Shown in pieces: positions 4,308-10,608 of a stretch of DNA of 13,552 nucleotides (the first letter of the stretch is position 1; every line of letters starts with the position of its first letter). Under the pieces are notes generated by a model, which saw only the letters and a list, made by a program, of their open reading frames with translations, was not told the DNA's origin and did not search any database. Source of the DNA: Bacteroidales bacterium (GTDB lineage: Bacteria > Bacteroidota > Bacteroidia > Bacteroidales > Dysgonomonadaceae); assembly GCA_012799155.1 (NCBI GenBank), contig JAAZLV010000158.1, positions 1 through 13,552 on the forward strand, read 5' to 3'. The translations under genes and the position numbers were made by a program.

Positions 4308-5594
4308 ATGAAACAAGCAGTTACAACTCTTTTTACCCGAAATCGAATCTTCATACCAGTATTATCTGTTTGCATGCTACTGATGGGCCAGTCGCTGCAT
4401 GCCCAAGTGCAGCTGAACGACAGTGCATCGGTAAGTCTGCTTACTGCCTCCCCCTGGAATGGCGCCCTCTATGCCCTATTCGGTCACACTGCTATCAGGG
4501 TACAGGATGACTCCACCGGTATGGATGCAGTTTTCAACTATGGCTTCTTCGATTCCTCGCAACCGGGATTCATCTACAATTTCGTGAGGGGTAGAACCGA
4601 TTATATCCTTGGAGTGACCTCTTTTGCTGATTTCCTATATGAATACAACGCCAAGGGGCAACAGGTGGTGGAACAGCAACTGAACCTCTCTCAGCATGAG
4701 AAACAGCTGCTTTACAATGCCCTTTATGAAAATGCACTCCCTGAAAACAGAGGATATCGCTACAACTACTTTTACGATAACTGCGCAACCCGTCCCCGTG
4801 ACATGGTTGAGAAATATATGGAGGGAGTGGTTCAATATCCTCCGACTGTCAAATCACAGTCCTATCGTGACCTGGTACATGAATCGCTCGTGCATTATCC
4901 ATGGTATCATTTTGGAGTTGACCTGCTGATTGGTACAGAAGCGGACAGTACCATTGGCGTGCGGGAAAAGATGTTCATCCCTTCCTATTTGATGGACTCC
5001 TTTGAAAAAGCGACCATCAGAAAGAATGATTCAATTACAATACCACTGGTGGTTCGTTCTGAGGTTCTTATTGCACAGGATCATGTGCGCAATGGTGTTG
5101 CGGAGCAGAGTTTCTTTACACCGCTGGTAACTGCACTCATCTTATTGTTCTTCTCACTGATAATTTCACTGATACAGGTTTTCAAGATGAGCAGGAGTCG
5201 CTTTTTTAGGATCTATGATACCCTTCTCTTCGGTGTTGCCGGGCTGGGAGGAGTGATCATCTTCTTCTTGATGTACTTCTCATCACATCCTGCTACCAAT
5301 CCGAACTGGAACCTCGTCTGGCTGAATCCTGTTGCTTTGCTAGCCGCTCTTTTCTTTTGGGTGAAATCAGCCCGAGGAAGTGTTTATATCTATCATTTTA
5401 TTAACTTTGTACTCTTAACGCTGTTCTTGCTTTGTTGGTGGTTTTTACCACAACAATTACCGGTGGCTACCATACCTTTTTCCATGAGTCTCTGGATTCG
5501 TTCGGCGACAAACTTATTAGTTGTCAGGAAGCTGAAACTAATAAGCAGACGTTTTACATCCAGTCGGGAGATGAAGGCAGCATGGGGACAATAA
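4308..5594 (+). CDS. lnb: Lnb-family (DUF4105) lipoprotein N-acyltransferase candidate
   Basis: A 428-residue envelope protein. Residues 1-32 look like a signal peptide or N-terminal membrane anchor (basic RNR, hydrophobic IFIPVLSVCMLLMG, then LHAQ). Residues 40-250 are the DUF4105/Lnb N-terminal periplasmic domain, with the likely catalytic pair His60 in ALFGHTAIRVQ and Cys159 in YDNCATRPRD. The C-terminus holds four or five hydrophobic segments (about 272-292, 305-324, 336-352, 362-380, possibly 388-404) and the family motif HPATNPNWNLVWLNP at 327-341. From memory, Bacteroides homologues were reported to N-acylate the lipoprotein amino-terminal cysteine, replacing Lnt; applying that here is inference. 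The frame is open upstream to a TTG at 4260, but that codon lies in the terminator and before the inferred transcription start, so the ATG at 4308 is preferred. The next gene begins 10 nt after its stop. Confidence 0.85.
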   Translation: MKQAVTTLFTRNRIFIPVLSVCMLLMGQSLHAQVQLNDSASVSLLTASPWNGALYALFGHTAIRVQDDSTGMDAVFNYGFFDSSQPGFIYNFVRGRTDYILGVTSFADFLYEYNAKGQQVVEQQLNLSQHEKQLLYNALYENALPENRGYRYNYFYDNCATRPRDMVEKYMEGVVQYPPTVKSQSYRDLVHESLVHYPWYHFGVDLLIGTEADSTIGVREKMFIPSYLMDSFEKATIRKNDSITIPLVVRSEVLIAQDHVRNGVAEQSFFTPLVTALILLFFSLIISLIQVFKMSRSRFFRIYDTLLFGVAGLGGVIIFFLMYFSSHPATNPNWNLVWLNPVALLAALFFWVKSARGSVYIYHFINFVLLTLFLLCWWFLPQQLPVATIPFSMSLWIRSATNLLVVRKLKLISRRFTSSREMKAAWGQ

Positions 5595-5604
5595 TAATAT
5601 TCTG

Positions 5605-7203
5605 ATGGGCAGTAACAATATGATTCGCATACTCTCTTCGCTGGTTGCATTTTTCGCCATTGCACCACTCACTGCACAAAACCGTTCAGGAGAGGTGCCA
5701 AAGCTTGTTGTTGCCATCACTGTGGACCAACTGCGCGGCGACTATCTGGAGATGTTCCGCCATAGCTTTGGCAACAAAGGGTTCAACAGGCTTATAAGCA
5801 ATGGGCTTGTATACAGTAATGTACAATACAACTATCCCAATCCCGACAGGGCTTCGGCCATCACAACACTTTTTACCGGTGCCTATCCCTCCTACCATGG
5901 CATCACGGGTGAAAATCGGTATCAGTTAGAAACAGGACAGGAGGTCTCTTCCTTTGCTGACGACCGATACCTGGGTAACTACACAACAGAAAAGCTTTCA
6001 CCCCGTTCCATAAAAGTCTCCACCATCACTGATGAGCTCAAGATAGCTTCGGGGGGACAATCGGATGTTTACACTTTTGCACCCTACGCCTCACAGGCAC
6101 TTGCTTCGGGAGGACATGCCGCAAGTGGTGCCTACTGGATTGAGGAAAGCAAAGGCAAGTGGGCCACCAGCACCTTTTTCTCAAACAAACAGCCGGCAGT
6201 GGACCAACAAAACCGAAGTGACAAGTCGCTCACTTACACCATTGGCAGCATTACCTGGCGTCCCTCACGGGAAATAGAGAGCTACGATGCTTTCCCTTAT
6301 ACAAAGAACAGATACCGTTTTCAGCATAACTTTGGGAACGACAAAAAGGATAGTTACGAGCTTTTCAAGCAGTCACCCTATGTGAACAGTGAGGTGAACA
6401 GCATGGCGATAAAGGTGCTGGAGAGTAATCAACTTGGGAAACGAATGAATCCCGACTTTCTGGCAGTAACTTTCTACGCCGGAAATTATGATAAAGCACT
6501 CGACAAGAACTACTCGGTTGAGATACAGGACACCTACTACCGTCTCGACCAGGAGATCGGTCGATTATTAGATGCCATTGAAGCATCAGTCGGTTTTAAA
6601 CACACTCTTGTATACCTGGTCTCTACCGGATATTTCACTGAGCAGGAGATCATACCGGAGGGGATGCTACCTGCAGGTGGCGATTTTCATCCCGACAGAA
6701 GTCAGGCACTCCTCAACATGTACCTGATGGCACTCTACGGTCGCCAGCAGTGGATCAAAAAGTATCATGACCGCCACATCTTCTTCGACCGCAAGTTGGT
6801 GGAAGACCATAAGATCGATTTTGCTGACTTTCAAGAGAAAGCGGCAGCTTTTCTGGTGCAGTCTGCCGGAATTCAGCAGGTGATCACTGCAAACCAAATG
6901 ACGCAGGCAGGTCACAATGAACAGACCCTCTTTCTGCGAAACGGTTATTACCCCGGAATCTCCGGTGACCTCATGCTGGAACTGCAACCCGGTTGGAGGG
7001 TAGTAGAACCTGGATCGGATCTGCAGGTACGCGAACGGAGCAATGCTGTCATTTCTCCAGTCATCTTCTTCGGCAATGACATTAAACCGCAGAAGATAAA
7101 TCGTACCATTGATGCCACAGAGATAGCACCCTCGGTTTCCTACCGCCTGCGTATTCGTGCACCCAACGCTGCCAAGGGGAAGATACTGGAAGAACTCTAT
7201 TGA
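5605..7203 (+). CDS. Secreted alkaline phosphatase/phosphodiesterase-fold protein, probable pseudoenzyme
   Basis: A 532-residue protein with a signal peptide (MIRILSSLVAFFAIAPLTAQ, residues 6-25; the start may be the ATG at 5605 or at 5620). The first metal-ligand region is typical (KLVVAITVDQLRGDY, with Asp41), as are TGAYPSYHGITGENRY (91-106), the helix SVEIQDTYYRLDQEIGRLLD (304-323) and the end region VIFFGNDIKPQKINRTIDATEIAPS (486-510). These place it in the type I phosphodiesterase/nucleotide pyrophosphatase branch of the alkaline phosphatase superfamily. The catalytic positions are not conserved. The nucleophile Thr position holds Asp81-Arg82. The TDYxxH pair is N294 and A298. The ADHG motif has become STG (340-342). 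The last His before the PLIFYG-like strand is Ile483. I therefore infer loss of phosphatase activity, based on a by-eye alignment. It lies 10 nt after lnb and 99 nt before secA, on the same strand. Confidence 0.8.
   Translation: MGSNNMIRILSSLVAFFAIAPLTAQNRSGEVPKLVVAITVDQLRGDYLEMFRHSFGNKGFNRLISNGLVYSNVQYNYPNPDRASAITTLFTGAYPSYHGITGENRYQLETGQEVSSFADDRYLGNYTTEKLSPRSIKVSTITDELKIASGGQSDVYTFAPYASQALASGGHAASGAYWIEESKGKWATSTFFSNKQPAVDQQNRSDKSLTYTIGSITWRPSREIESYDAFPYTKNRYRFQHNFGNDKKDSYELFKQSPYVNSEVNSMAIKVLESNQLGKRMNPDFLAVTFYAGNYDKALDKNYSVEIQDTYYRLDQEIGRLLDAIEASVGFKHTLVYLVSTGYFTEQEIIPEGMLPAGGDFHPDRSQALLNMYLMALYGRQQWIKKYHDRHIFFDRKLVEDHKIDFADFQEKAAAFLVQSAGIQQVITANQMTQAGHNEQTLFLRNGYYPGISGDLMLELQPGWRVVEPGSDLQVRERSNAVISPVIFFGNDIKPQKINRTIDATEIAPSVSYRLRIRAPNAAKGKILEELY

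Positions 7204-7302: not shown

Positions 7303-10608
<3,306 letters not shown>

Follow-up and report, generated by a model that had tools for sequence, protein, structure and literature searches.

A degenerate PafA homologue paired with the lipoprotein N-acyltransferase Lnb in Bacteroidales

What becomes of an alkaline-phosphatase-fold protein once its active site has been taken apart, and why is such a protein encoded between a lipoprotein acyltransferase and secA? The question is raised by a stretch of 13,552 nucleotides from a Bacteroidales genome, called the window here. We use the working name X for the protein encoded at 5605..7203 on the forward strand, and write the gene pair as lnb-X. 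The recently discovered acyltransferase Lnb carries out the step that completes lipoproteins in Bacteroides, a group whose surface machinery consists largely of lipoproteins. In other bacteria the same reaction is performed by Lnt, which is unrelated to Lnb. The features of the locus are collected in Table 1. The window genome (G000, 85% complete) is by appearance a Proteiniphilum relative, as a Proteiniphilum MAG (L053) has the same gene order and 70-99% protein identity. No intact PafA was found in G000, which has one short PF01663 match on contig C372.

Table 1. Features of the lnb-X-secA segment, in window coordinates
Feature	Position	Strand	Basis
lnb, lipoprotein N-acyltransferase family (Lnb_N and Lnb transmembrane domain), GHT and DNC motifs	4308..5594	+	Pfam
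X, degenerate PafA (alkaline-phosphatase-fold pseudophosphatase)	5605..7203	+	532 codons plus stop, uninterrupted
Signal-peptide-like N-terminus of X, residues 6-25	5620..5679	+	Read by eye from sequence; without lipobox
Asp41, equivalent of PafA Asp38, sole core residue kept in X	5725..5727	+	D in 120/120 nearest listed and 120/120 listed Bacteroides-type homologues
Arg82, replacing nucleophile Thr79	5848..5850	+	K or R in 116/120 nearest listed homologues
Asn294 and Ala298, replacing zinc ligands Asp305 and His309	6484..6498	+	Alignment
Thr341-Gly342, replacing zinc ligands Asp352-His353	6625..6630	+	Alignment
Core of newly conserved patch, residues 361-383 (helix 363-378, W383)	6685..6753	+	Relative entropy; helix from model
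Gln474, replacing last zinc ligand His486 (not Ile483)	7024..7026	+	Alignment
secA, conserved downstream neighbour	7303..10608	+	Pfam SecA domains

The fold of X and its lost active site

X is read from an intact frame of 532 codons, as the initial annotation had stated, and its true translation start is probably 5620 because residue 6 is the first aligned residue for most of its homologues. The predicted structure has a single N-terminal helix (residues 6-27) over the signal-peptide-like stretch, with a globular domain after it, and a simple lipobox pattern matches none of the 111 Lnb-linked proteins. X appears, from its N-terminal sequence, to be exported to the periplasm. It belongs to the type I phosphodiesterase/nucleotide pyrophosphatase family (PF01663; 84.8 bits against a gathering cut-off of 23), and a PDB sequence search with X returns two PafA entries as the best matches (5too, 8e-51; 5tj3, 1.4e-50). 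The model of X superposes on PafA over 485 residues and has the PafA fold across the whole protein. The NCBIfam PafA equivalog (NF042991), however, gives X 308 bits, under half of its cut-off of 650, and canonical Bacteroidales PafA proteins from other genomes score 772, 668 and 703 bits (L033, L036 and L148).

The correspondence of active-site residues was taken from an alignment of 215 proteins. We take the zinc ligands of PafA to be D38, D305, H309, D352, H353 and H486, a numbering that agrees with the 5tj3/5too sequence, and the title of 5too names T79, N100, K162 and R164. X keeps one of the six zinc ligands (D41), its Thr nucleophile is gone, and the phosphate-binding residues N100, K162 and R164 have become E103, Y161 and S163, so that all three are lost. 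X shares its fold with PafA and little of the catalytic site. Most of the residue assignments made by eye in the initial annotation hold in this alignment: the nucleophile is replaced near Asp81-Arg82 (T79 to R82), the ligands of the TDYxxH motif are N294 and A298 (the D305 and H309 columns), the DH pair is T341-G342 (D352 and H353), and Asp41 alone is in place (D38). The assignment of the final His to Ile483 was mistaken, as H486 corresponds to Gln474; the His is lost either way and the conclusion is unaffected.

At the Gln474 column every canonical row (76/76) has His, as do 4% of the rows for Lnb-linked proteins. A phmmer alignment places Leu473 opposite H486 of PafA where the 215-protein alignment places Gln474. 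Counted along the 5tj3/5too sequence, H486 lies in the THS/THG motif, nine residues before the His of YDxH. When the last ligand is scored at YDxH instead of THG, 14 rows keep 6 rather than 7 of 7, and the canonical and degenerate sets, and with them the trees, are unchanged. We also considered active-site residues at shifted positions. This possibility was rejected on the predicted structure, given its full-length superposition on PafA and the absence of the residues from the alignment.

Shared loss and relocated conservation

Relatives of X were scored out of seven for the nucleophile and the six zinc ligands, some genomes being drawn from two collections, with identical proteins removed before residues and spacings were counted. 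A loss of this sort is common to the Lnb-linked proteins: among the 215 aligned proteins, all 111 Lnb-linked relatives examined keep 0 (3 proteins), 1 (99) or 2 (9) of the seven residues. A further 76 proteins keep 7/7, and the other 28 keep 0 to 4. The nearest homologues of X (best 120 of 1115 matches) keep 1 (104) or 2 (16), and those nearest to a Bacteroides-type member (best 120 of 2214 matches) keep 1 (114) or 2 (6). We rejected chance, and likewise sequencing error or decay confined to a single assembly, as the source of the loss, since homologues share it and dN/dS is low.

In a FastTree phylogeny of an enlarged set, all 165 degenerate proteins (165/165) form a single clade with one intact protein (L148, 7/7), with support of 0.999; in a smaller set, 139/139 degenerate proteins again group with L148. 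The enlarged tree omits L231 (278 aa) and all fusions except L133 and seven others. The same clade holds proteins that keep 5 (L233), 4 (L147, L037 and L226), 3, 2, 1 or 0 of the seven residues, a graded loss that would fit a stepwise dismantling of the site. Within it, the Lnb-linked X proteins (111 including the fused L133, plus seven more fused proteins) fall in one clade of 125 with support of 0.961, which also contains seven proteins with no Lnb seen in their locus.

X is under purifying selection. Against the two nearest loci (L053 and L071) its dN/dS is 0.057 and 0.059, rough figures from a simple Nei-Gojobori count in which pS of X, at 0.59 to 0.79, is near saturation. The corresponding values are 0.117 and 0.093 for Lnb, 0.044 and 0.047 for SecA, and 0.116 and 0.133 for CinA. 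Only eight pairs yielded values for X, ranging from 0.057 to 0.111, and more diverged pairs gave none. X has a lower dN/dS than Lnb in five of the six pairs with values for both, the exception being the pair with L055 (0.102 for X against 0.099 for Lnb).

Mean conservation is alike in the Lnb-linked and canonical PafA sets (relative entropy 2.05 and 1.93), and its distribution along the protein differs. Relative entropy is 1.66 in Lnb-linked proteins against 2.88 in canonical PafA over residues 286-306 (the first ligand loop), and 1.63 against 2.88 over residues 471-491 (around the last His). It is 2.92 against 1.07 over residues 363-383, 2.41 against 1.47 over residues 384-404, and 2.37 against 1.23 over residues 406-426. 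Constraint has thus shifted away from the active site and onto a patch at residues 361-426, newly conserved in comparison with PafA, which includes F361, R365, L369, Y373, Y378 and W383. R82, E103, Y161, S163, N294, A298, G342 and Q474 are about 2.5 to 5 bits less conserved across families than their counterparts in canonical PafA. Position 82 is Q, R, K or E depending on the family, which argues against one conserved pocket ligand. From these conservation profiles, the patch is a candidate interface. The maintained non-catalytic role, as opposed to decay, that had been suggested for X gains support from the low dN/dS, the shared loss and the move of conservation to the patch.

Association of X with Lnb

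The window carries, in order, the end of tilS, serS, cinA (reverse), L31, lnb, X, secA and gyrA. The gap between lnb and X is 10 nt to the first ATG and 25 nt to the likely start. Window Lnb matches PF13387 (92.2 bits) and PF25221 (152.2 bits) above their cut-offs. Its activity is inferred from these Pfam domains because its score against NCBIfam NF051878 (395 bits) is below the cut-off of 550; only 2/247 Bacteroidales genomes have an Lnb above that cut-off. The named loci are the 80 best of 568 confirmed stretches; in these, Lnb lies upstream of X in 74/80, SecA lies downstream in 75/80, and both are present in 72/80. The position between an Lnb-type acyltransferase and secA, first read from the window, is therefore a conserved one.

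Spacing was examined for 108 distinct X proteins with a separate Lnb, the window left out. In 106 of these the genes are on the same strand and lie within 100 nt of each other or overlap, with 27 overlapping by exactly 4 nt; the remaining two pairs are 199 nt apart. Overlaps other than 4 nt are inflated, as the longest ORF was used. The putative catalytic motifs of Lnb, GH and NC, are found by simple patterns in 107/107 unfused Lnb proteins. At three loci (L101, L104 and L115) X-secA is retained and about 6 kb of surrounding sequence holds no lnb; at two (L119 and L120) neither Lnb nor SecA is seen beside X. In the flanks of about 8 to 9 kb around Lnb-X at L133 and L134, both from one family, no SecA was found. 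The loci L111, L123 and L125 are cut by contig ends, and in G030 and G144 Lnb is on another contig.

At locus L133, Lnb and X form one frame of 924 residues. A search with this fused protein gave 164 matches, and the 120 listed matches together with the query all match both the Lnb and X profiles (121/121). The search used an Lnb-X query only and seeds on the first 500 residues, which favours the Lnb half. In a tree of the X domains of 119 listed matches and L133, from which the truncated P0195 (642 aa) was omitted, the fusions fall into three groups. One has 74 proteins, four named Paludibacteraceae and one Bacteroides sp., and encloses the split locus L048. Another has 45 proteins and is sister to Bacteroides-type L028 and L030 (support 1.0; parent 0.923), and the last is P0203, sister to L041 and L043 (parent 1.0). 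Read from this tree, the pattern suggests at least three Lnb-X fusion events. At L048 (8012-10440) itself, Lnb and X overlap by 169 nt amid fused proteins, perhaps because a frameshift or an assembly error has broken up a fused gene.

In the 12 junctions printed, a hydrophobic, signal-peptide-like stretch is kept, by eye, between the last membrane segment of Lnb and X, and the fused X would therefore stay periplasmic. The GH motif of Lnb is present in 120/121 fused proteins and NC in 113/121, with eight missing NC by the simple pattern. The 120 fused X domains (119 listed and L133) keep 0 (25), 1 (90) or 2 (5) of the seven residues. In 25/120 fused proteins (P0122-P0241 and L133) even the equivalent of PafA D38 has given way to Asn (17) or Glu (8). 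An AlphaFold2 model of the fused protein was built from natural fusions; an unpaired alignment misaligned the X rows. The model has a pLDDT of 92.4 and a pTM of 0.65, with the domains confident and their mutual arrangement not, and it defines no interface between Lnb and X.

The link to envelope protein biogenesis that the position of X had first suggested is supported by these data and sharpened to Lnb, by the close or overlapping genes, the fusions, and the retention of Lnb-X without SecA in one family.

Among 247 Bacteroidales genomes, 96 have both Lnb and an X/PafA match, 49 X only, 16 Lnb only and 86 neither, in counts that ignore phylogeny and include canonical PafA among the X matches. 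X is not present wherever Lnb is, as 16/112 genomes with Lnb have no X match and none of the Lnb loci in these genomes has X nearby (0/16). At two of these loci, from one family, secA follows lnb immediately and X is gone (G068 and G173, listed as 99% complete); the lnb-secA loci without X are L243 (6113-10900) and L244 (2050-6817). These absences indicate that Lnb can work without X. In one other Bacteroidales family, X is the next gene downstream of lnt in three sampled genomes (L223, L224 and L225), with gaps of about 422, 482 and 113 nt by longest ORF. As X is seen with Lnb or lnt, yet is absent from some Lnb genomes, it accompanies lipoprotein N-acylation without being indispensable to it. 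A further six genomes carry lnt on one contig with an X/PafA match, about 5 to 18 kb away. Across the 247 genomes, Lnb and Lnt (the latter above its cut-off) are nearly exclusive: 21 have both and 14 have neither, with 142 of the 143 genomes that have Lnt counted. The 14 without either may be incomplete or may use a different enzyme. PMC12994826 describes DUF4105 as the domain identified as Lnb, and as repeatedly displaced by Lnt.

A possible role for X and competing readings

Computation shows for X the PafA fold, loss of catalytic residues, purifying selection, membership of one clade, lnb-X pairing and fusion in at least three lineages. We think it probable that X is an exported pseudophosphatase derived from PafA that is now a periplasmic accessory partner of Lnb. 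Lnb (DUF4105, a permuted NlpC/P60 protein) is both its neighbour and its repeated fusion partner, and of the two it is Lnb that has the His and Cys motifs of an acyltransferase, whereas X would contribute no known catalysis. The simplest role for a non-catalytic X coupled or fused to Lnb would be that of a partner in docking, presentation or gating. Against a partnership count the loss of X from one family that retains Lnb-SecA, the loci with X but no Lnb nearby, the fused model in which no interface is defined, and the score of window Lnb under its NCBIfam cut-off.

YejM/PbgA/LapC offers a different model for such a protein. YejM carries its own inner-membrane domain ahead of its hydrolase domain, a domain that X lacks, having one N-terminal helix only in its model. 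Following YejM, X could be a sensor or regulator whose non-catalytic hydrolase fold recognises a membrane lipid, such as lipid A or a lysophospholipid, and adjusts Lnb or some other pathway of the envelope, a reading that deserves mention and that we judge unlikely. PMC7773988 describes a periplasmic domain of the same broad superfamily, without proper placement of catalytic residues, in a protein that controls the envelope by regulating LPS synthesis. The fold of X is broadly of this kind, and X has a newly conserved surface besides, a likeness by description rather than by direct comparison. However, YejM acts in LPS control, governing LpxC turnover by way of LapB, and X is tied to Lnb, no ligand or signalling partner is indicated for X, and the precedent is contested, YejM being called a metalloenzyme in the title of PMC7576196.

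It is improbable that X is still an enzyme of other chemistry, such as a hydrolase or transferase that works with one metal or none and relies on Asp41 and on residues new to the pocket. Asp41 is invariant in 240/240 listed near homologues, the nucleophile site is K or R in 116/120 Proteiniphilum-type and 117/120 Bacteroides-type listed relatives, and both listed sets of 120 have G342 throughout and T341 almost throughout; yet conservation at eight former catalytic positions, R82 and Q474 among them, has fallen across families by about 2.5 to 5 bits relative to canonical PafA, and 25/120 fused proteins keep none of the seven residues, the Asp included. That X serves Sec-dependent export as a periplasmic helper of SecA/SecYEG, with a merely positional tie to Lnb, we consider quite improbable. 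SecA is the next gene downstream in 75 of the best 80 loci, and three loci keep X-SecA with Lnb not nearby, but SecA is cytoplasmic and X apparently exported, the fusions found with the Lnb-X query are with Lnb, and L133 and L134 keep Lnb-X where SecA was not found in the flanks. Scarcely credible is a decaying relic carried by the operon: although only one catalytic residue is left and the gene has disappeared from one family, the frames are open and of similar length, a dN/dS of about 0.06 for the nearest pairs contradicts decay, mean conservation resembles that of canonical PafA, and X has been fused repeatedly.

As a partner of Lnb, X would lie at the periplasmic surface of the inner membrane, next to the NlpC/P60-type acyltransferase domain. 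Its surface at 361-426 might hold Lnb, the lipoprotein substrate or the phospholipid acyl donor, and the outcome would be efficient acylation of the alpha-amino group of the lipoprotein cysteine before the move to the outer membrane. More specifically, and tentatively, with a chance we would put a little short of even, an alkaline phosphatase became in Bacteroidales a dedicated non-catalytic subunit for lipoprotein maturation. It would dock on Lnb, and in some lineages serve Lnt (whose gene adjoins that of X in three genomes of one family), by means of a surface that arose during the stepwise dismantling of the zinc site, and would present the lipoprotein or the phospholipid donor. If this is true, many gut Bacteroides genes named alkaline phosphatase or PafA would be lipoprotein-processing factors, and a second protein tied to Lnb would change the study of that acylation step. 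The proposal of Lnb as the partner of X is new here; a literature search found nothing on X, and the original Lnb paper, which lay outside that search, may mention the neighbouring gene.

Some of the Bacteroides-type relatives carry names such as alkaline phosphatase family protein (in Bacteroides reticulotermitis and B. helcogenes), and one is called Alkaline phosphatase PafA. Genes of the lnb locus that carry these labels are not to be taken for such phosphatases, a caution that applies to surveys in which pafA genes are counted towards phosphorus-cycling capacity. One PafA survey counts gut Bacteroidales sequences as PafA (PMC8812569), and any lnb-linked sequences among them should not be assumed active. 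With members that keep 7, 5, 4, 3, 2, 1 and 0 of the seven residues, the clade is a good natural case of the passage from enzyme to partner protein.

Degenerate PafA relatives also occur in this clade outside its Lnb-linked branch (L143 8941-10569, and parts of L136-L152 and L226-L242). These relatives lie near ychF and a cluster of pcrB, phosphopantetheinyl transferase, gldD and gldE (gliding/type IX secretion) rather than by lnb, and no Lnb was found within the fetched flanks of these ychF-, pcrB-, gldD- and gldE-side branches. They retain between 0 and 5 of the seven residues, and part of the 361-426 patch is common to 12 ychF/gld-linked relatives.
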